Source: an uncultured Chlorobiota bacterium (GTDB taxonomy: Bacteria > Bacteroidota > Bacteroidia > Bacteroidales > JAADGE01). Taken from it: a stretch of 64,000 nucleotides of DNA. Position 1 is the first letter of the stretch, and each line of letters starts with the position of its first letter. Below the pieces are notes generated by a model. That model saw nothing but the letters and a program-made list of their open reading frames with translations, had not been told where the DNA came from and did no database searches. Below, piece by piece: positions 40,473-50,353 of this stretch. The position numbers were made by a program, and so were the translations under genes. The stretch covers positions 62,001 through 126,000 of the forward strand of contig CAMZKL010000006.1 in NCBI GenBank assembly GCA_947311255.1, written 5' to 3'.

Positions 40473-41201
40473 TTATTTTTTAACTTTATAAATAAAATTA
40501 TAATCTTTAATAATTTTCTCCAAAAATAACAAAGGAATATCAAGAGATCTAATACCTGCTTTTTCTTTTATAGCAGTTGCAGTATCTTTAAGCATTGATA
40601 TTGCAGATTCATTTGTAAGATTTTTTTTATAATGAGCAATTACATCTTTAATTGTCTGAATATCAGAGTTTTCTAGCATTTCTGTTTCTGGGAATGAAAG
40701 TTGATATTCCTCTGGAAGGTCAACATATATTGTGTTTTTTAGAGAATTTTTTCTTTTTAGACTAATAACAGAAGTTTTGGCAACTAAATCTCCAAGCCTT
40801 TGTCCTTTTCCATTAACAGCAATTGTTATCATAGCAACAGAGCCATACAGAAAATTTACATCAATTAAGCGAAAAACCCAGCGAATAAGATAACTCCCAA
40901 CAGTAGGCTGTCCTCCATCAATTTTTTCAACTTTAATTTTTATTGCCTTTTTTCCTAAACTTTGACCATTCATAAAAATTTCTGATAAAAGAGAATAAAA
41001 GAATACCGGAATTATTAAAATAACAGTAAATATATCTTTGCTTTTAGAACCATTAAAAGCATCTGATATTATAAAGATAATCATTACATAGGAAAAAATA
41101 ACAAAATAGTCAATTAACTGAGAACCAATACGTTCTCCAATATTTGCTAAATCTTTTTTTATAATAACATTTTGTCCTGTTTCAATTCCTAATTGTTTCA
41201 T
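40473..41201 (-). CDS. RDD-family membrane protein
   Basis: The 242-residue protein has about three to four membrane helices in the first 145 residues with the RDD marks: IGERIGSQLIDYFVIF, GQSLGKKAIKIKVEKIDGGQPTVGSYLIRWVFRLIDV and NGKGQRLGDLVAKTSVI. About 90 residues of soluble C-terminal tail follow. It is divergent from the SpoIIM-like gene (87 bp apart), and RDD plus SpoIIM proteins regularly accompany MoxR/DUF4129 operons in Bacteroidota, so it probably belongs to the same system. The molecular role of RDD proteins there is unknown. Confidence 0.88.
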   Translation of the reverse strand: MKQLGIETGQNVIIKKDLANIGERIGSQLIDYFVIFSYVMIIFIISDAFNGSKSKDIFTVILIIPVFFYSLLSEIFMNGQSLGKKAIKIKVEKIDGGQPTVGSYLIRWVFRLIDVNFLYGSVAMITIAVNGKGQRLGDLVAKTSVISLKRKNSLKNTIYVDLPEEYQLSFPETEMLENSDIQTIKDVIAHYKKNLTNESAISMLKDTATAIKEKAGIRSLDIPLLFLEKIIKDYNFIYKVKK

Positions 41202-41288: not shown

Positions 41289-42260
41289 ATGAAAGAAATA
41301 GTTTTTTTAAATGAAAATGCCGAACGTTGGAAACAATTTGAAAAGATTTTAAATAAAAAATCCAAAAATAATCCGGATTTATATGCAGACCTTTTTATTA
41401 AGATTACAGATGATTTATCATATGCACAAACATACTTTCCAAATAGCGAAACAGAAGACTATCTGAATATTCTTGCTTCAAGAACGCATCAATTAATATA
41501 TAAAAATAAAAAAGAAAAAAAGGGAAGACTAGCTTTTTTTTGGAAATATGAAATACCAAAGGAGCTTTTGGTTTCTAGAAAATATATATTTTATTCACTA
41601 ATTATTTTTTTTGTAACAGTTCTTATTGGTGTTGTTTCTTCGGCAAACGATGGTGAATATTCTAGACTTATTCTTGGAGATTCATACGTAAACATGACAA
41701 TAGACAATATTGAAAAAGGGGACCCAATGGGGGTTTATAAAGATACCGATAGTTTGTCAATGTTTGTGTTAATTGCCATAAATAATGTTAAAGTAATGAT
41801 AATGGTCTATCTTCTTGGATTAATTTTATCTATTGGATCAATTTATTATATTTTTGTTCATGGAATAATGATTGGAACATTTCATTATATTTTTTACCAA
41901 TATAATGTTCTTGAAGAATCTTTAATAACTGTTTGGATACACGGAACAGTTGAAATATTTACACTAGTTGTGTCTGGAGGTGCAGGTATAATGCTTGGAA
42001 ATAGCATCCTTTTTCCTGGAACTTATTCAAGAAAACAATCTTTTTTGAGAGGAGCAAAAAGTACTACAAAAATTATAGTTGCCTTAATTCCTTTTATAAT
42101 TTTTGCTGCTTTTTTAGAAGGTTTTGTTACAAGGCATTCAGAATGGAACGATATAATAAGAATTGGAATAATTGTTTTGTCAATGGCAATGATAATTTGG
42201 TATTTCTTTATTTATCCTGAAAAAAATAAAAATAGAATTAAATCAATACAACAGATTTAG
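41289..42260 (+). CDS. SpoIIM-family (stage II sporulation M-like) membrane protein
   Basis: The 323-residue protein has a soluble N-terminal domain (FLNENAERWKQFEKILNKKSKNNPDLYADLFIKITDDLSYAQTYFPNSETEDYLNILASRTHQLIY) and about six membrane helices. VFVLIAINNVKVMIMVYLLGLILSIGSIYYIFVHGIMIGTFHY and the HGTVEIFTLVVSGGAGIMLG stretch are the SpoIIM/DUF95 signature. In spore-formers this protein belongs to the DMP peptidoglycan hydrolase complex, but Bacteroidota do not sporulate and its role there is unknown. It is the first gene of the rightward operon leading to MoxR. Confidence 0.88.
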   Translation: MKEIVFLNENAERWKQFEKILNKKSKNNPDLYADLFIKITDDLSYAQTYFPNSETEDYLNILASRTHQLIYKNKKEKKGRLAFFWKYEIPKELLVSRKYIFYSLIIFFVTVLIGVVSSANDGEYSRLILGDSYVNMTIDNIEKGDPMGVYKDTDSLSMFVLIAINNVKVMIMVYLLGLILSIGSIYYIFVHGIMIGTFHYIFYQYNVLEESLITVWIHGTVEIFTLVVSGGAGIMLGNSILFPGTYSRKQSFLRGAKSTTKIIVALIPFIIFAAFLEGFVTRHSEWNDIIRIGIIVLSMAMIIWYFFIYPEKNKNRIKSIQQI

Positions 42261-42322: not shown

Positions 42323-43372
42323 ATGGAAAAAAAGAAAAAAGAAAACGTAGATTTTATAAAAAACAGAGATTTTGGTGATAAACTGGGAATTCCAATTTTT
42401 TTCTTTATTCAAGAATTTAAATTTTTATCTTTAATAATTCTTCGTTTTGTAGGACCTTGGTTAGCAATTGTTATTTTAGTAACATCTTTGATTTCAAATT
42501 CAATATATAAGGCTTCAATTTCAAATACAGAACCAACAGAAATAGTTATTTTATATGGGTTTTTAATCTTATTGTTTTTAATGATAGGGTTTTTGGTGTC
42601 TATTGCAACAACCCATAGTTATATTCGCTTATATGTAAAAGAAGGAAAAGGGAATTTTACAATTGATGATGTTGGAAACTTAATCAAAAAGAAAATTTTT
42701 AAAATATTCTTTGGTGGAATTTTGATTTCTCTAATTGTTGTTGTAGGCTTCTTCTTTTTTTATATTCCGGGTATATATTTGACAATTGCAATGTCCTTTT
42801 TCTCAATTGTAATTGTTTATGAAGATGCAAAAATAAGAGAATCAATAAGCAGAAGTTTTAAAATTATTAAAGGTCATTGGTGGGAAACTTTTGGATTGAT
42901 ATTTATTTTTGGACTAATTGTTGGTTTTGCTTCTTACGTGTTTATCATTCCTATTTATGTTGTTTTTATTGTTGCTGCTATAGGAGGTAAAACCATTGGT
43001 GTTGGTTCTGTTATTGTATTAGTTTTATTTATATCTTTATATTTTGTAGCTTATATGTTTTTTGTTTCCTTAAAACAAACAATAATTGCAGTTCAGTATT
43101 TTAGTCTGATTACAAATAAAGAAGGTTTGGGTTTAAAAGAAAGAATAGCTTCAATAAATAAAGAAAAAGAGATAATAAAAGAAGATATTTTTGAAGAAAA
43201 AACTGAAAACGAGGAAAAATGGGAAGAGCTTTTAGAAAAACACAAAAATAAAACTGTTGAAACAAAGGAAAAACAAACAAAAAAAGAAGACAAATCAACC
43301 AAGAGTTCTGACGATGAACAAAACAGATTTCTAGATAGTAACGATAACAATAGATTTAAACAAAAATTTTAA
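42323..43372 (+). CDS. Multi-pass membrane protein with conserved NRF...RF tail (paralog 1)
   Basis: The 349-residue protein has about six to seven membrane helices, with phrases SRSFKIIKGHWWETFGLIFIFG and FSIVIVYEDAKIRESISRS, recalling the DUF7544/glycerophosphodiesterase-membrane-domain group. Its first 30 residues (NRDFGDKLGIPIFFFIQEFK) resemble those of the next gene (ERDFGEIISVTISFFIQEIK), and both have SRSF..IKGHWW, so the two are paralogs. A charged linker with EKWEELLEKHK leads to the C-terminal tail NRFLDSNDNNRFKQKF, also found in variant form in the next two proteins. I cannot assign a function. Confidence 0.8.
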   Translation: MEKKKKENVDFIKNRDFGDKLGIPIFFFIQEFKFLSLIILRFVGPWLAIVILVTSLISNSIYKASISNTEPTEIVILYGFLILLFLMIGFLVSIATTHSYIRLYVKEGKGNFTIDDVGNLIKKKIFKIFFGGILISLIVVVGFFFFYIPGIYLTIAMSFFSIVIVYEDAKIRESISRSFKIIKGHWWETFGLIFIFGLIVGFASYVFIIPIYVVFIVAAIGGKTIGVGSVIVLVLFISLYFVAYMFFVSLKQTIIAVQYFSLITNKEGLGLKERIASINKEKEIIKEDIFEEKTENEEKWEELLEKHKNKTVETKEKQTKKEDKSTKSSDDEQNRFLDSNDNNRFKQKF

Positions 43373-43383
43373 AAATTACAAAA

Positions 43384-44472
43384 ATGAACAAACAAGACAT
43401 AAAAATATTTCAGGAAAGAGATTTTGGAGAAATAATAAGCGTAACAATATCTTTTTTTATACAAGAGATTAAATCAATAATTATGGTTTTACTATATTTT
43501 GTAGGCCCCTTTGTTCTCATAAGTTCAGTTTTATCTTCATACTTTAATCTAGGAACAGTAAATGATTTTACAAAAATGATTGAAATCTTTAAAGGGAATA
43601 ATATAACGCAAACCACACAAAATTCAGGAGGTACATTTATAATAATACTTTCTAACCTTTTACAAGGAATTATGCTATATACTGTTATTGGTGTATATGC
43701 TAAACTCTATTCTGAAAAAGGAAAAGGAAACTTTGAAATGCAAGATATTTGGAATGAATTATCAAAAAGATACTTTTCGGTTCTTGGCGGACAAATTTTA
43801 GCCGGACTAATGGTTGTTGCCGGATTTATTTTATTAATTATTCCGGGCTTTTATCTTTTAATTGCTGTGTCTCTTCTTTTTGTTGTTATTGTTTTTGAAG
43901 AACTTAGCATTGGAGATTCAATTTCAAGATCATTTGTTCTTATAAAAGGTCATTGGTGGTTTACTTTTGGAACTTTTATTGTTATTGGAATTTTAACATC
44001 AGTTTTATCTGCAATGTTTGTGGGAGCAATTGGTGCAGCATCTTTAATAGGAAGCAACCAGCTTGTAACTACACTTTTTAATGTTATAATTGGCTTTGGA
44101 AGTGTTATCATTTCTGCAGTATCTGTTTTTCTTCCAATATTTTTATACGCTTCTTTTGTTACAAAAAAAGAAAACCCAACACTTCTAGATAGAATTACAA
44201 ACATAAACCAAAATAATGAAAACAATTCTAATATTTTTGAAGAATCAAAAGTTTTAGAACAAGAAGATATAAAAAATGAAGAACAAAAGACAAAAAACGA
44301 AAATGATTGGGAAGAATTACTAGACAAACACAAAAAAACAATAGATAAAAACAAAGAAAATACTGACAAAATTATAGAAGAAGAAGAAAGTAATGAAGTT
44401 AAAAAATCGAAAACTGAAAAAAATAGATTTGAGGACGAAAATGAGAACGACAGATTTAAACCAAAATATTAA
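43384..44472 (+). CDS. Multi-pass membrane protein with conserved NRF...RF tail (paralog 2)
   Basis: The 362-residue protein follows its paralog by 11 bp. It has about six membrane helices and the shared motifs ERDFGEIISVTISFFIQEIK, EELSIGDSISRSFVLIKGHWWFTFGTFIVIG, and a charged linker with NDWEELLDKHKK. The last residues, NRFEDENENDRFKPKY, match the tail of paralog 1 closely. Tandem duplication with retention of only a few motifs (N-terminus, SRSF..IKGHWW, WEELL.KHK, tail) suggests these are the functional parts. The function is unknown; the context is the MoxR operon. Confidence 0.8.
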   Translation: MNKQDIKIFQERDFGEIISVTISFFIQEIKSIIMVLLYFVGPFVLISSVLSSYFNLGTVNDFTKMIEIFKGNNITQTTQNSGGTFIIILSNLLQGIMLYTVIGVYAKLYSEKGKGNFEMQDIWNELSKRYFSVLGGQILAGLMVVAGFILLIIPGFYLLIAVSLLFVVIVFEELSIGDSISRSFVLIKGHWWFTFGTFIVIGILTSVLSAMFVGAIGAASLIGSNQLVTTLFNVIIGFGSVIISAVSVFLPIFLYASFVTKKENPTLLDRITNINQNNENNSNIFEESKVLEQEDIKNEEQKTKNENDWEELLDKHKKTIDKNKENTDKIIEEEESNEVKKSKTEKNRFEDENENDRFKPKY

Positions 44473-44564
44473 TTAATGCTTTTTTTAGTATCATAGTAAA
44501 ATGTTTTATTGAATACTAAAAATATGATTCTAAATATTTTTAAGAATGGATATAAAAAAATAGA

Positions 44565-45509
44565 ATGGCAACAAACCAAAATACAAAACAAAACGAAGAA
44601 TTTAAAGGTTTTAAAATAAAAAAAGGTTCAAAACACATCCTTATTCTTTTAGAAAACAGAAAAGTTTTTTTGTCTTTTCTCTTGCTAGTTGTTTTTCCAA
44701 TAATTGTTTTACAAACAACTATAGAATACTATAATTATGAAATAACAGGAATTTCTATAAATTGGTATTTTTTACAATGGTTAATTATTGCACCATTTTC
44801 CATTTTAATTTATTCAATAGTTATGTTGTTTACAATGTCATACACAACACTTCGAAAAATTAAAGGGGAAAACAAAATATCTTTTCTCTGTATAAGAAAA
44901 CTAATTCCTGAAATTGCTAAAAAAACATTATTTTCTGTTGTTTTTGTTGCACTTATATTTACTGTTCTAAAAACAATAATGTTTATTGTCCCATTTGTTT
45001 TTTTAATAATCTTCCCAATATCTGCAATAGCAACACTTTATAATAAAGATATTTTAAATTCTGATATTATAAAAATATCAAAAGAATATAGAAAAACAAA
45101 AGGAGGACAAAAACACATAGGAACACTAATTTTAGTTGGAATCATAACATTTATTGCTTTTAGTATATTGTTTTTTGTTTTCACAGGACTTACTTCAAGT
45201 TTTAATATAGGTTACTATCTAAATAATATTATAATTCAATCTGTTAATGAGCTTTTTACTTCAACAGGACTTTTTATTATTTTTGTTTATATAAATACCA
45301 TATATTCTGAAAAAGTTTTTAATATACCAAGCAATATTCATAAAAAGGCAATTGAAATATTATCTGGAACCAAAAGAGAGGAAAAAAACAGAAGAAAAAA
45401 TTTTAGAAAAAAGAATAATAAATTAAGTTTTAAAAACGATAAAGTAAAAGAGAAAAACAGATTTGAAGAAGACCATAGCTTTAATAGGTTTGAAAACACA
45501 AAATTTTAA
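44565..45509 (+). CDS. Multi-pass membrane protein with NRF...RF tail (third member)
   Basis: The 314-residue protein has about six membrane helices and little overall similarity to the two upstream paralogs, but it ends EKNRFEEDHSFNRFENTKF, the same tail type, after a strongly basic stretch (RREEKNRRKNFRKKNNKLSFKNDKVK-like). It lies in the same operon, after a 92-bp spacer. The family is not recognised. Sharing only the terminal tail with otherwise different membrane proteins suggests the tail is a docking or sorting signal; this is inference. Confidence 0.75.
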   Translation: MATNQNTKQNEEFKGFKIKKGSKHILILLENRKVFLSFLLLVVFPIIVLQTTIEYYNYEITGISINWYFLQWLIIAPFSILIYSIVMLFTMSYTTLRKIKGENKISFLCIRKLIPEIAKKTLFSVVFVALIFTVLKTIMFIVPFVFLIIFPISAIATLYNKDILNSDIIKISKEYRKTKGGQKHIGTLILVGIITFIAFSILFFVFTGLTSSFNIGYYLNNIIIQSVNELFTSTGLFIIFVYINTIYSEKVFNIPSNIHKKAIEILSGTKREEKNRRKNFRKKNNKLSFKNDKVKEKNRFEEDHSFNRFENTKF

Positions 45510-45518
45510 CTAATCTTA

Positions 45519-46211
45519 ATGAAAACTGTAATAATAATTATATTATTCTTGTTCGTTTCCTTTTCTGCGACCTCTCAAACAATCGATACATTAAATTACG
45601 ACTATAGTTCAAATGTTGAAATTAGAACATCGGAGAAAATAAATACTTTTTTAAATGATGATTTCTATAAATATAACAATGAAATTGTAGCATCTCAATC
45701 TATATGGAATGTTTTTTTTAGATGGCTAGCTAAATTATTACACCTACTTGATACAAGAGTAAGTTTTGTTTCATATTTCTTTTATATAGCTATTCTAACC
45801 ATATTTGTTTATGCTATAATAAAACTATTAGGTATAAACATGCAATCCATATTTCTAAAAAGTAAAAAAATTAATATCCCGGAATTTGAAGTTTTTGATG
45901 AAGATATTTACGGAATAAACTTTGAAAATATAATTTTAAAATCAGAAAAAGCACAAGATTTTAAAACAGCAATTAGATACCTATATATTTTATTCCTCAA
46001 AGTTTTAACAGAAAGAGAACTAATAGAATGGAAGATAAATAAAACAAATATAGATTATAGAAACGAAATTATCAATACAAAACACTTTTCAAATTTTAAG
46101 TATTTAACTTTAATATATGAATATGTTTGGTACGGTGAATTTTCTGTTGATAAAACTCAATACAAAAAATATAAAAAAAGCTTTGAAAAAACATATAAAG
46201 AACTATCATAA
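45519..46211 (+). CDS. DUF4129 domain membrane protein
   Basis: The 230-residue protein has a signal peptide (FVSFSATSQ), an N-terminal extracytoplasmic segment, one membrane helix (about 85-105, VSYFFYIAILTIFVYAIIKLL) and a cytosolic C-terminal DUF4129 domain: KAQDFKTAIRYLYILFLKVLTERELIEWKINKTNIDYRNEI and EYVWYGEFSVDKTQYKKYKKSFE. DUF4129 proteins are constant members of MoxR/DUF58 operons and are sometimes fused to transglutaminases. It starts 9 bp after the third tail protein. Confidence 0.88.
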   Translation: MKTVIIIILFLFVSFSATSQTIDTLNYDYSSNVEIRTSEKINTFLNDDFYKYNNEIVASQSIWNVFFRWLAKLLHLLDTRVSFVSYFFYIAILTIFVYAIIKLLGINMQSIFLKSKKINIPEFEVFDEDIYGINFENIILKSEKAQDFKTAIRYLYILFLKVLTERELIEWKINKTNIDYRNEIINTKHFSNFKYLTLIYEYVWYGEFSVDKTQYKKYKKSFEKTYKELS

Positions 46212-46249: not shown

Positions 46250-47428
46250 ATGAATAAAAAAGACATAAAATATTATGCCATAATAGCTTTTGTGTTAATA
46301 CTAACAATTGTATTCGAAATAATGAAACCAAAACAAATTGATTGGACATTTAATTTGGAAGCAAGTAAAAAAAGTCCATACGGCACTTTTGTACTTTTTA
46401 ATACCATACAAGAAATATTTCCCAATAAAAAAATTATTACAAACAAAAAAACAACAACTGAATTTAATAATAATAAAAACAAAATATTAAAAAACTACAT
46501 TTACATTTCAGATGTTTTTTCTGCAGATAAACTTGAAACAAAAACAATTTTAAATATACTAAATAAAGGAAACTCTGTTTTTATCTCAGCACACGATTTT
46601 AGTAGAGTATTTAAAGACACCTTTAAAATATCTGTAAAATACACATCTTTTTTTGATACAATTGGAAATTATAACTTTTATAATAAAAAATTAAAAAGAA
46701 AAAATCCATTTTTCTTTGGTAAATCAGCATCAAAAAATGTTTTCTCTGGCTTTAATGGATGTAAAACAGAAGTTCTTGCCTTTTCCAAAAACAAAGAACC
46801 AATTTTTATAAAGCAAACTTTTGACAAAGGGGGTGTGTTATATTTAAACACAAGCCCTGAGATTTTTACAAATTATGGAATGGTAACGGAAAAAAACTTT
46901 GAATTTACATACAAATCATTATCATATTTAAAATTAAACGATATTGTTTGGGACGAATATTACAAACCATTCAGAAAACGAAACAAAGGAAAGTTAGATT
47001 TTATTTTTAATAGTCAAAGCCTTAAAATTGCATATATAATTCTTTTAGTAACAACCGGAATATTTGTGTTCTTTACCATAAAACGAAGACAAAGAATAAT
47101 TCCTATTATAAAACCATTTGAAAACAAAACACTTGAATTTGTAGAAACTATTAGTAGCGTATATTTTAACTCAAAAAACCATAAAGACATAGCATTAAAA
47201 AAACACCAACACTTAAAATATTTTTTATTTAATAAATATTTTATTAAACTCCCTGAAAACAAGGATGTTGACTATAATATAATTGCAGAAAAAACAGGTG
47301 TCCACATTGATATTGTAAAAAAAGTTTTGCAGACTTACACAAAAATTAATAAGCTTGAAAAAATTTCACAACAAGAACTAAATAATTTTAATAATTCAAT
47401 AGAAGATTTTTATGAAAACTGTAAGTAA
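46250..47428 (+). CDS. DUF4350 domain membrane protein
   Basis: The 392-residue protein has an N-terminal membrane helix, an extracytoplasmic part starting DWTFNLEASKKSPYGTFVLFNTIQEIFPNKKI (the DUF4350 signature), a segment KGNSVFISAHDF, a second helix at about 262-282 (LKIAYIILLVTTGIFVFFTI) and a cytosolic end with NKTLEFVETISSVYFNSKNHKDIALKK. DUF4350 proteins are glutamine-amidotransferase/GATase-like folds often placed between DUF4129 and MoxR. The stop overlaps the start of the following Lys-rich protein gene by 17 bp, so the two are coupled. Confidence 0.85.
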   Translation: MNKKDIKYYAIIAFVLILTIVFEIMKPKQIDWTFNLEASKKSPYGTFVLFNTIQEIFPNKKIITNKKTTTEFNNNKNKILKNYIYISDVFSADKLETKTILNILNKGNSVFISAHDFSRVFKDTFKISVKYTSFFDTIGNYNFYNKKLKRKNPFFFGKSASKNVFSGFNGCKTEVLAFSKNKEPIFIKQTFDKGGVLYLNTSPEIFTNYGMVTEKNFEFTYKSLSYLKLNDIVWDEYYKPFRKRNKGKLDFIFNSQSLKIAYIILLVTTGIFVFFTIKRRQRIIPIIKPFENKTLEFVETISSVYFNSKNHKDIALKKHQHLKYFLFNKYFIKLPENKDVDYNIIAEKTGVHIDIVKKVLQTYTKINKLEKISQQELNNFNNSIEDFYENCK

Positions 47429-48206
47429 AGTATCCACAAAATTAGCATTAATTGTTTTGCTTTTAATAATTATTCCTTTGCAAAATATTATTGGACAAAA
47501 CTCATTCTATGTTTATTTCAAACAAGACGGGAAAAGAATAAATATTAAAAAAAATAAGGTTGAATTAAAGAAAAAACCATTTACAATTTTTGTAGAATAC
47601 ATCCAACCTGTTGATTTATATATAAACGCATCAAATAAGGCAAAAACATATAATCAAGCACAAAAAGGAAAATTATTATTTGAAATGTCTGGGTTTAATA
47701 ACATTAAAGATTCAGAAGACTTTTTTGTAAACAAAGGAACGATTAATATGTTTAAAGAAAAAACACAAATATGGAAAAAAGGAAAAACAGAAGGAGGAGA
47801 AATGATAAAAACAGAAAAAAACCATTTTGTTGTTAAAAAATATATTGAAAAGTTATATTCTGTTGATGAAAAAAGAATGATGTATGTTAAAGACATTGAC
47901 AAAATGCTACTCCACATGGTTTTTATTTATGCAGAAAAAGATTCTGACGGAGAATTCCAAGAAATTCAAAGAGAAATAGTTAAAATAAAATGGGTAAACA
48001 TATATAATGAAGAAACAAAAAGCTATGCTCGAATGAAAAAAATTGAAGGGAAAGCAAAAATTAGACAAGCAAAAAGAAACCTAAAACTAAAAAAAAGAAA
48101 TATTAAAAGAGAAGCAAAAAGATTAAAAAAATTAGAAGCTAAAAAAATAAAAAACAAAAGAAAAGAGAAAAAAAAGAAAAACAAACAAGACTCCGAAAAG
48201 AAATAA
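47412..48206 (+). CDS. Secreted protein with Lys-rich C-terminal tail, unknown
   Basis: I do not recognise this family. The 264-residue protein has a signal peptide (LALIVLLLIIIPLQNIIGQ), a compact middle part with KKPFTIFVEYIQPVDLYINASNKAKTYNQAQ and MLLHMVFIYAEKDSDGEFQEIQREIVKIKW, and an extremely basic end: about 55 residues composed mainly of Lys and Arg (for example RNLKLKKRNIKREAKRLKKL). It overlaps DUF4350 by 17 bp and precedes MoxR by 26 bp, a position where I do not know of a regular family member. A highly basic tail outside the cytoplasm could bind peptidoglycan, anionic polymers or nucleic acid. Confidence 0.7.
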   Translation: MKTVSKVSTKLALIVLLLIIIPLQNIIGQNSFYVYFKQDGKRINIKKNKVELKKKPFTIFVEYIQPVDLYINASNKAKTYNQAQKGKLLFEMSGFNNIKDSEDFFVNKGTINMFKEKTQIWKKGKTEGGEMIKTEKNHFVVKKYIEKLYSVDEKRMMYVKDIDKMLLHMVFIYAEKDSDGEFQEIQREIVKIKWVNIYNEETKSYARMKKIEGKAKIRQAKRNLKLKKRNIKREAKRLKKLEAKKIKNKRKEKKKKNKQDSEKK

Positions 48207-48232: not shown

Positions 48233-49216
48233 ATGACACCAGACACACAAGAATTCAAAAACCGTATAAATTTAGATAAACTAAAAGAAAAAGTTGATAA
48301 AATTAAAGAAAGTATTGGAAGTATTGTAATTGGGCAAGAAGATATGATTGAGCAAATCTTAATAGCTCTTTTATCCAATGGTCATATCCTTATTGAAGGA
48401 GTTCCCGGTGTTGCAAAAACACTAACAGCAAAATTGTTTGCAAAAACAATTTCAGCTGAATATTCAAGAATTCAATTCACACCAGATTTAATGCCGTCTG
48501 ACGTTACAGGAACATCAATTTTTAATCTTAAAACATCGTCCTTTGAATTTAAAAAAGGACCCGTTTTTGGAAATATAATTTTAATAGACGAAATAAATAG
48601 AGCTCCTGCAAAAACACAAGCAGCACTTTTTGAAGTAATGGAAGAACGGCAAATAACAATTGACGGAAACACACATAAAATGGAGCATCCTTTTGTTGTT
48701 TTTGCAACACAAAACCCAATTGAACAAGAAGGAACATATCGTTTGCCAGAAGCTCAGTTAGACAGGTTTTTGTTTAAAATTAACGTAGGATACCCAAAAA
48801 CAGAAGATGAGATAACAATTTTGAAAAACAGCCAAGCACGAAAAGGCAAAAATGAAATAGAAAATATAAAAACGTTAATTACCAAAGAAGAAATCGCTTT
48901 TTTTAGGCAACAAACAACGGAGATTTATATTGACGAAAATTTAATAAAATATATTGCACAAATAACAGCAAAAACACGAAATAATAATTCTCTTTTTCTT
49001 GGAGCATCTCCAAGAGCATCTTTAAACATTTTGGCAGCAAGTAAAGCCAAAGCCGCAATAAGCGGAAGAGATTTTGTTATCCCAGACGATATAAAAATAG
49101 TTGCTTATCCGGTTATGCGACACAGAATTATTCTAAGTCCCGAAAAGGAAATGGAAGGAGTAACAACAGAAAAAGTTATAAAACAAATTATTGAAAGTGT
49201 AGAAATTCCAAGGTAA
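48233..49216 (+). CDS. MoxR-family AAA+ ATPase
   Basis: The 327-residue cytosolic ATPase shows the MoxR pattern: VIGQEDMIEQILIALLSNGHILIEGVPGVAKTLTAKLFA (Walker A), RIQFTPDLMPSDVTGT, Walker B NIILIDEINRAPAKTQAALFEVMEERQIT, sensor FVVFATQNPIEQEGTYRLPEAQLDRFL, and LGASPRASLNILAASKAKA near the end. MoxR proteins act as chaperone-like ATPases that assemble or activate partners carrying von Willebrand A domains, usually a DUF58 protein encoded directly downstream. No DUF58 gene follows here: a terminator and tRNA-Asn come next. Confidence 0.95.
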   Translation: MTPDTQEFKNRINLDKLKEKVDKIKESIGSIVIGQEDMIEQILIALLSNGHILIEGVPGVAKTLTAKLFAKTISAEYSRIQFTPDLMPSDVTGTSIFNLKTSSFEFKKGPVFGNIILIDEINRAPAKTQAALFEVMEERQITIDGNTHKMEHPFVVFATQNPIEQEGTYRLPEAQLDRFLFKINVGYPKTEDEITILKNSQARKGKNEIENIKTLITKEEIAFFRQQTTEIYIDENLIKYIAQITAKTRNNNSLFLGASPRASLNILAASKAKAAISGRDFVIPDDIKIVAYPVMRHRIILSPEKEMEGVTTEKVIKQIIESVEIPR

Positions 49217-49220
49217 AAAC

Positions 49221-49260
49221 AAAAAAAGACCTTGTAAAAAAATATACAAGATCTTTTTTT
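49221..49260. terminator. Bidirectional terminator between moxR and tRNA-Asn
   Basis: CTTGTA at 49231-49236 pairs with TACAAG at 49245-49250, extended by AAAAAAAGA / TCTTTTTTT after one mismatch. It closes the MoxR operon and, on the other strand, the tRNA-Asn gene, which ends 2 bp away. Confidence 0.8.
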
Positions 49261-49261
49261 G

Positions 49262-49335
49262 CTCCTCCTCTAGGACTTGAACCTAGGACCTGCGGATTAA
49301 CAGTCCGACGCTCTAACCAACTGAGCTAAGGAGGA
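49262..49335 (-). tRNA. tRNA-Asn (anticodon GTT)
   Basis: On the minus strand the acceptor TCCTCCT pairs with AGGAGGA, the D arm reads AGCTCAGTTGGTTAGAGC, the anticodon loop is CTGTTAA giving GTT, and the T arm is CTAGG-TTCAAGT-CCTAG. The gene is 74 nt with G as discriminator and no encoded CCA. It has its own consensus promoter upstream and a terminator right behind. Confidence 0.95.
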
Positions 49336-49356
49336 ATGTTTTTTAAAATTGAGTTG

Positions 49357-49386
49357 CAAAAGTAATACCTTTTTTGAAAAAACAAA
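49357..49386 (-). promoter_or_regulatory. tRNA-Asn promoter
   Basis: On the minus strand TTTG (49386-49383) is followed after 18 nt by TACTTTTG (49364-49357), a full Bacteroidota consensus 22 bp before the tRNA. It abuts the pfkB-like -7 box on the opposite strand. Confidence 0.75.
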
Positions 49387-49394
49387 TATATTTG
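49387..49394 (+). promoter_or_regulatory. -7 element of the PfkB-like gene
   Basis: TATATTTG fits TANNTTTG; transcription would start near 49400, about 27 nt before the ATG at 49427. This rules out the upstream TTG start of the track ORF. Confidence 0.5.
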
Positions 49395-49426
49395 CAAAAA
49401 AAATTAAAAATTTAATAAAAAATAAG

Positions 49427-50353
49427 ATGAGTTTAACAGTAGTAGGATCAGTTGCATTTGACGCAATAGAAACACCTTTCGGAAAAACAGACAAAATAAT
49501 TGGCGGTGCGGGGACATATATTTCTCTTTCTGCATCATATTTTGAAAAAAAAACAAATATAATTTCAGTTGTGGGAGATGATTTTCCTCAAGAATATTTA
49601 AATATGCTAAACTCTCACAGTATTGACACAAAAGGAATTCAAATAAAAAAAGGAGAAAAAACATTCTTTTGGTCTGGAAAATATCATAGTAATATGAATG
49701 TTCGAGATACTATTACAACCGAGCTAAATTCTTTAGCTACATTTAACCCAGAAGTACCCGACCAATACCAAGACACAAAATATTTAATGTTGGGAAACCT
49801 AACTCCAGTTATACAAAGGCAAGTTGTTGAACGCATAAAAAAAAGACCAAAATTAGTTGTAATGGATACAATGAATTTTTGGATGGATACAATGCTTGAT
49901 GAACTTAAAAAAACAATAAAACTTGTTGATGTTCTTTCAATTAATGATGAGGAAGCACAACAATTATCAGGTAAACATTCTTTGGTAAAAGCGGCAAGAG
50001 TTATTAGTGAAATGGGTCCAAAGTTTGTTATAATTAAAAAAGGAGCACATGGAGCATTACTTTTTGGAGAAGGGAAAATGTTTAGTGCCCCAGCATTACC
50101 TCTCGAATTTGTTTTTGACCCGACAGGTGCCGGAGATACATTTGCCGGAGGTTTTATTGGATATCTTGCAAAAACGGATGATATTTCTTTCAATAATATG
50201 AAAAATGCAGTTATTGCTGGTTCTGTAATGGCATCTTTTAATGTTGAAAAATTTGGAACTGAACGAATACAAGAATTAAACGAAAAGATTATTAACCAAA
50301 GGGTAGAAAAATTTGTGGACTTAGTATCATTTGACATGAAACACCCTTTTTAA
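49427..50353 (+). CDS. PfkB-family sugar kinase
   Basis: I chose ATG 49427 over the track start at TTG 49349, which lies upstream of the promoter. The 308-residue kinase shows the ribokinase fold: SLTVVGSVAFDAIETPFGKTDKIIGGAGTYISLSASYF at the N-terminus, the signature DPTGAGDTFAGGFIGYL with the catalytic Asp near the C-terminus, and VIKKGAHGALLF. It would phosphorylate a sugar or nucleoside with ATP. The substrate is not deducible, although close relatives in Bacteroidota are labelled sugar kinase or adenosine kinase-like. A terminator follows about 155 bp downstream. Confidence 0.88.
   Translation: MSLTVVGSVAFDAIETPFGKTDKIIGGAGTYISLSASYFEKKTNIISVVGDDFPQEYLNMLNSHSIDTKGIQIKKGEKTFFWSGKYHSNMNVRDTITTELNSLATFNPEVPDQYQDTKYLMLGNLTPVIQRQVVERIKKRPKLVVMDTMNFWMDTMLDELKKTIKLVDVLSINDEEAQQLSGKHSLVKAARVISEMGPKFVIIKKGAHGALLFGEGKMFSAPALPLEFVFDPTGAGDTFAGGFIGYLAKTDDISFNNMKNAVIAGSVMASFNVEKFGTERIQELNEKIINQRVEKFVDLVSFDMKHPF

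Follow-up and report, generated by a model that had tools for sequence, protein, structure and literature searches.

In the NorQ-NorD, RavA-ViaA and CbbQ-CbbO systems, a MoxR-type AAA+ ATPase is paired with a VWA-type partner and acts on membrane or enzyme clients, and the locus described here would likewise combine the two. In NorQD, a C-terminus contacts the post-sensor-1 loop of MoxR (PMC13036017). That C-terminus belongs to the VWA partner, whereas here repeated tails are found on membrane subunits. Likewise, the canonical metal site of the VWA protein in MoxR/VWA systems is DxSxS, whereas the DUF58 protein here reads DxGRxM; the site (L226 4577-5917) is IDMGRTM, and not DxSxS, in members of the family and in outgroups. 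According to the passages of Makarova et al. 2015 (PMC5898192) that deal with these genes, SpoIIM neighbourhoods encode a COG0714 (MoxR) ATPase together with a vWA protein, DUF4350 occurs with MoxR/vWA, and these SpoIIM/MoxR/vWA/DUF4350 neighbourhoods have been proposed to be membrane-remodelling or secretion complexes. The genes named there overlap with the module here (SpoIIM, MoxR, vWA/DUF58 and DUF4350); the same passages mention no C-terminal tail, whereas the tail here appears to be specific to a single family of uncultured bacteria of Bacteroidales type.

The GPDPase_memb family (PF10110) is defined by its membrane domain, to which the proteins studied here add a predicted cytosolic extension of 30-80 residues with NRF repeats. 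The MoxR-SpoIIM-RDD-DUF58-DUF4129-DUF4350 gene set is found repeatedly in distant bacteria, and our search of the open-licence literature returned neither a study of its function nor a report joining a MoxR/SpoIIM/DUF module with such a tail. The module, although uncharacterised, is therefore known already, and what is new is a putative lineage-specific C-terminal short linear motif. A bacterial C-terminal docking motif of this kind is the C-terminal peptide of FtsZ, a conserved short peptide that follows a variable disordered linker. The tail described here has the same layout, but its sequence differs, it is carried by membrane proteins, and its units are repeated two or three times.

Three consecutive genes with the same C-terminal pattern

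The window, the whole stretch of 64,000 nucleotides that was analysed, is part of contig C6 of a 2.8-Mb draft genome (G000). Its close relatives, as identified by sequence, are metagenome bins that carry the label Bacteroidales or 'Chlorobi/Chlorobiota'. The gene order at the locus is RDD (divergent), SpoIIM, P1, P2, P3, DUF4129-like, DUF4350, X264, MoxR and pfkB kinase. Pfam matches, sub-threshold for DUF4129 and DUF4350, and synteny in relatives place MoxR, SpoIIM, RDD and the DUF4129- and DUF4350-type proteins in one locus. Its features, in window coordinates, are the following:

40473..41201, - strand: RDD-family membrane protein, divergent gene of the module (PF06271, E 2.4e-17)
41289..42260, + strand: SpoIIM-family membrane protein (PF01944, E 3.2e-33); missing where the tail is lost
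42323..43372, + strand: P1, GPDPase_memb-like inner-membrane protein of 349 aa, tandem paralog 1 (ORF; PF10110, E 3.6e-6, sub-threshold; family orthologs)
43220..43246, + strand: WEELLEKHK stretch in the P1 linker (sequence; common to P2; kept in the nearest relative only)
43322..43369, + strand: P1 tail, NRFLDSNDNNRFKQKF (sequence; tail profile)
43384..44472, + strand: P2, GPDPase_memb-like inner-membrane protein of 362 aa, tandem paralog 2 (ORF; family orthologs; predicted structure)
44308..44334, + strand: WEELLDKHK stretch in the P2 linker (sequence)
44422..44469, + strand: P2 tail, NRFEDENENDRFKPKY, nearest of all to the family consensus (sequence; tail profile)
44565..45509, + strand: P3, membrane protein of 314 aa, third of the series and probably a remote paralog of P1/P2 (ORF; profile comparison; P3-type homologs)
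45456..45506, + strand: P3 tail, NRFEEDHSFNRFENTKF (sequence; tail profile)
45519..46211, + strand: DUF4129-like protein (PF13559, E 0.0033, sub-threshold; synteny)
46250..47428, + strand: DUF4350 protein (PF14258, E 3.3e-5, sub-threshold); missing where the tail is lost
47412..48206, + strand: X264, signal-peptide protein with a lysine-rich end (sequence); kept beside P1/P2 even without module and tail
48233..49216, + strand: MoxR AAA+ ATPase (PF07726, E 8e-64); ortholog missing where the tail is lost

P1 aligns with the C-terminal half of the PF10110 profile at 26.4 bits, against a gathering score of 29.6 that one ortholog passes (30.4), while a Pfam search gave no PF10110 match for P2 or P3 and no match of any kind for P3. 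The MoxR operon of the window (48233-50353) lacks the DUF58 gene that comes after MoxR in outgroups and is unlinked in most of the family. The VWA-like DUF58 gene of this genome is found on another contig (G000:C3:58579-59913), at 82% to the operon-linked copy of G001, which is matched by PF01882 (DUF58) with an E of 3e-19.

As an earlier note on this DNA had pointed out, the products of the three consecutive genes P1, P2 and P3 end in the same pattern, which reads NRF-x6/7-[ND]RF-x3/5-[FY]. No other ORF of at least 100 aa in the window has such an end. Genome-wide counts of the tail rest on profile and pattern searches. A 22-position tail profile, of which P3 is itself a part, finds only these three proteins in the whole 2.8-Mb genome at E<=10 (9e-10, 5.5e-9 and 2.3e-6), and a profile built without P3 still aligns to the end of P3 (9.8 bits, i-E 0.13 for 3000 proteins). 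Among random 24-mers drawn from the composition of the tails themselves, [ND]RF.{3,10}[ND]RF.{2,6}[FY]$ was matched once per 2 million. DNA pattern searches of the genome returned, beyond the operon, only chance sites at about the control level. Since codon choice differs among the three tails, recent DNA copying between them is ruled out. The WEELL-x-KHK motif, also reported for the linkers of P1 and P2, is present in both; the nearest relative has WEDLL/WEELL (WEDLLEKHK in G004), and the motif as such is absent from the other orthologs of the family.

Conservation of the tail and kinship of P3

Both tandem paralogs bear the tail across the bacterial family, so that the tails withstand the refutation proposed in the earlier note, namely a lack of conservation in orthologs. 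The usual tail, kept by most P1/P2 proteins of the family, is NRF-x5/7-[ND]RFKPK[YF], with an acidic spacer between the units. The R and F residues of both units are invariant in 18 aligned tails, and two proteins have three [ND]R[FY] units (YDRFNDNDEHNRFTNNDDDNDRFKPKY and NRYKKKDDSGNRFKNTDDDIDRFRPKY). The linkers before the tail differ freely in length and sequence. When P2 of G000 is compared with that of G008 and G003, the tails are 81% and 88% identical, respectively, versus 42% and 35% for the domains and 35-38% for the linkers, whereas for P1 the tails are 62-64% identical between genomes versus 49-62% for the domains. Across diverged homologs, the P2 tail is conserved above its disordered surroundings, as is typical of a short linear motif. 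These alignments support the view that the tail behaves like an independently constrained motif of this kind. The pattern has gaps within the family: in G001 and G020, P2 has no tail or has lost it while the module remains. In G007 a single P gene is seen, with a full tail.

Outside the family, the tail profile gave only two weak, unsupported matches in 295 genomes sampled from the order, one of which ends a 26-aa open frame while the other is without the NRF pattern. A lone C-terminal FNRF on a distant homolog (G030) was taken as chance, its second copy lacking FNRF. Because the P homologs in MoxR operons outside the family stop right after the membrane domain, without a tail, sequence comparison indicates that the tail was added to an older module within this family and is not a general feature of MoxR operons. 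This distribution bears on whether the tail serves in sorting or in binding to the membrane surface or to nucleic acids, with RFKPKY dipping into the bilayer or binding a polyanion and so setting the site of the protein in the cell. A flexible linker that ends in basic and aromatic residues beside acidic spacers would suit such a role. However, the near-invariant N/D-R-F spacing exceeds what a charged and aromatic patch needs, and restriction to one family and one module is unexpected for generic lipid binding, which makes this explanation quite improbable.

The earlier note had taken the third protein to be unrelated to the other two, which is probably not the case. A comparison of profiles, with P3 and its homolog from another genus (G015) on one side and P1/P2 on the other, gives a probability of 96-98% (domain only, E 2e-9), versus 0.1-0.2% for unrelated proteins of the operon. 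The kinship leans on the G015 homolog: without the tail, the domain reaches 96% when that homolog is in the profile, versus 15% for P3 alone, and the G019 protein gives 0.3%. Pairwise domain-only scores of P3 against P1/P2 (z up to 2.6) do not stand alone, and the predicted structure of P3, with a pLDDT of 46, is too poor for use. P3 is thus likely, though not proven, to be a remote paralog of P1/P2. Two further genera of the family also have tailed P3-type proteins, and in one case the gene lies outside the operon. The G015 protein, the one sequence homolog of P3 found across the family (E 6e-4), is encoded between aroA-like and pyrB-like genes, away from the MoxR operon, and ends in KEKDRFNDNNDRNIFEEQDSDIKF. 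The G019 protein, encoded directly before DUF4129, was recognised by its position and its tail (DRFDFENQTNRFSTDKDRKF).

This kinship of P1, P2 and probably P3 opens the way to an explanation by inheritance, in which the tail predates the duplication of the P genes and persists without a specific function, its decay in three genomes (see below) reflecting a relaxation of P1/P2. The shrinking of the linkers in genomes without the module would fit. However, the tail is better conserved than the adjoining linker and, for P2 at long distance, better than the domain, and it is kept in P3-type proteins the membrane parts of which have diverged almost beyond recognition. Since the tail is conserved beyond the linker and retained in such strongly diverged proteins, it appears to be under selection, and functionless inheritance is very improbable.

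Loss of the tail together with the MoxR module

We surveyed 21 genomes of the family. Three of them, G002 (99% complete), G011 (92%) and G010 (70%), are without SpoIIM, DUF4350 and the orthologs of MoxR and DUF58; their best MoxR matches are paralogs of about 50% identity, versus 64-81% for orthologs. P1 and/or P2 remain in all three, with X264 alongside in two. The tail is absent from P1 of G011 (which ends in YFTLKEKK), P2 of G010 and P2 of G002, and it is reduced in P1 of G002 (...NRFENQNETNRFIN), where NRF..NRF remains while the KPKY end is gone. The linkers shrink as well. Conversely, nearly all tail-bearing genomes have SpoIIM, DUF4350, MoxR and DUF58. This does not hold for G004, G005 or G009 (contig ends or 77% completeness), for G017 (71% complete, its broken P gene carrying one RFKPK unit) or for G015 (without a DUF58 ortholog, DUF4350 interrupted, and with a degenerate P1 tail, ENRFLLDDKKNKFNY). 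In G013, the module is present and no P gene was recovered.

In a tree built from two other MoxR-type paralogs, G011 falls inside a supported clade of tail-bearing genomes, apart from G002 and G010. The AU test rejected both monophyly of the three genomes (p=0.0016) and a grouping of G002 with G011 (p=0.0023), while G002 with G010 was not rejected (p=0.16). Since the three genomes without the module form no clade, tail and module were lost together at least twice independently; well-supported branches require two losses, and the best tree has three. The co-loss of DUF58 was not part of one deletion, since in G000 and most genomes of the family this gene and the operon are on separate contigs. 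Two or three events, one of them in a 70%-complete genome, are suggestive and not statistically conclusive, and a general relaxation of P1/P2 would give the same picture. The main caution comes from G004, in which the tails are intact while the MoxR ortholog and DUF4350 were not found; the contig ends shortly after P2, and the missing genes may reflect an assembly gap or a recent loss. In this closest relative (L003/L176 1-1207, G004:C15), a restriction-type DEAD helicase gene comes after P2, in the place of P3 and DUF4129. In G015, which possibly has a module in decay, DUF4350 (L170 5852-7026) is broken by stops or frameshifts, and neither the DUF58 ortholog nor RDD was found. That its P3-type protein retains a tail away from the operon counts against docking to the module.

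The same genomes bear on whether the tail instead serves self-association or assembly, joining P1, P2 and P3 to each other without contacting MoxR or DUF58. The tail is common to all P-type subunits and occurs on little else, and it is found on tandem paralogs that may form hetero-oligomers. However, some genomes show only one P gene, which has a full tail (G007), and G002 keeps two P paralogs while both tails are lost or reduced along with the module. We therefore regard self-association as decidedly unlikely.

Topology and the docking reading

The predicted structure of P2 has a folded helical membrane domain, with a pLDDT mostly above 90, followed by a linker and tail of low confidence. Residues 336-355 of 362 have a pLDDT below 50 and the final residues about 49, with no secondary structure at the end, which places the P2 tail in a predicted disordered region. 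A fold search with this model gave only weak matches (CTL1/PNS1 and CysZ, E>=0.003), and the tail profile matched no chain among solved structures. Loop charges favour cytosolic N- and C-termini, provided that the long TM3/TM4 stretch is a hairpin. P1, P2 and P3 would then be six-helix inner-membrane subunits with both termini in the cytosol, each extended by a flexible charged linker that ends in a putative short linear motif of two, sometimes three, [ND]R[FY] units with an acidic spacer between them; the tails of P1 and P2 additionally close with a basic-aromatic KPKY.

Such an end could also be a C-terminal degron, read by a cytosolic protease or AAA+ unfoldase of general function (FtsH, Clp) that tunes the amount of each subunit. 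A C-terminal position, a flexible linker and an aromatic end are all features fitting for degrons in general, and the tail is present on several subunits of one system. Yet no other protein of the genome has it, it tracks the module, and a terminal degron has no need of NRF units that recur internally two to three times, separated by a regular spacer. We consider a degron unlikely.

Docking to a component of the module is the reading that best accounts for a peptide that appears to be cytosolic, repeated and flexible, since the constraint on it disappears with the module. The tail would act as a multivalent docking peptide that tethers the membrane subunits to a component of the MoxR/DUF58/SpoIIM/RDD/DUF4129/DUF4350 module on the cytosolic face, and the AAA+ machine would thereby be recruited to its membrane clients. 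Because all module genes were lost together, co-loss does not distinguish between these partners. The MoxR hexamer or its VWA-like DUF58 partner are favoured since both are soluble-face machinery and since contact of a C-terminus with MoxR is known from NorD-NorQ. This reading, of a multivalent peptide on the cytosolic side that docks to a component of the MoxR module, most likely MoxR or DUF58, has in our estimate a probability of roughly 0.55. The common docking partner that the earlier note proposed is thus favoured by the motif-like constraint and by a loss that tracks that of MoxR, DUF58, SpoIIM and DUF4350, while its premise of unrelated membrane proteins is not supported. Since MoxR modules outside the family work without a tail, the tail would be either an accessory or bound at a site that the partner has only in this family.

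More tentatively, the NRF tails may constitute a docking code, gained once at the base of the family, with which several of the membrane subunits would bring the MoxR hexamer or DUF58 to the membrane. If true, such a code would provide a direct handle on the targets of a widespread and functionally uncharacterised MoxR/SpoIIM/RDD/DUF58 machine. In any case, a lineage-specific peptide, the loss of which follows that of the module, offers a small, testable handle on the contact between membrane subunits and ATPase.

X264, the product of the gene upstream of MoxR, has a signal peptide, is conserved in the genus and has a very lysine-rich C-terminus, as do its orthologs; it matches no Pfam or NCBIfam family. 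As a partner of the tail, X264 is made unlikely by its distribution, being kept where the tail is lost and not found in the tail-bearing G014-G016. In G011 (L083 3222-4950) and G002 (L084 4176-6734), P1 and/or P2 lie beside X264 despite the loss of MoxR, SpoIIM, DUF4350 and DUF58. P1/P2 are thus able to persist without the module, together with X264, which suggests a P-X264 function apart from it.
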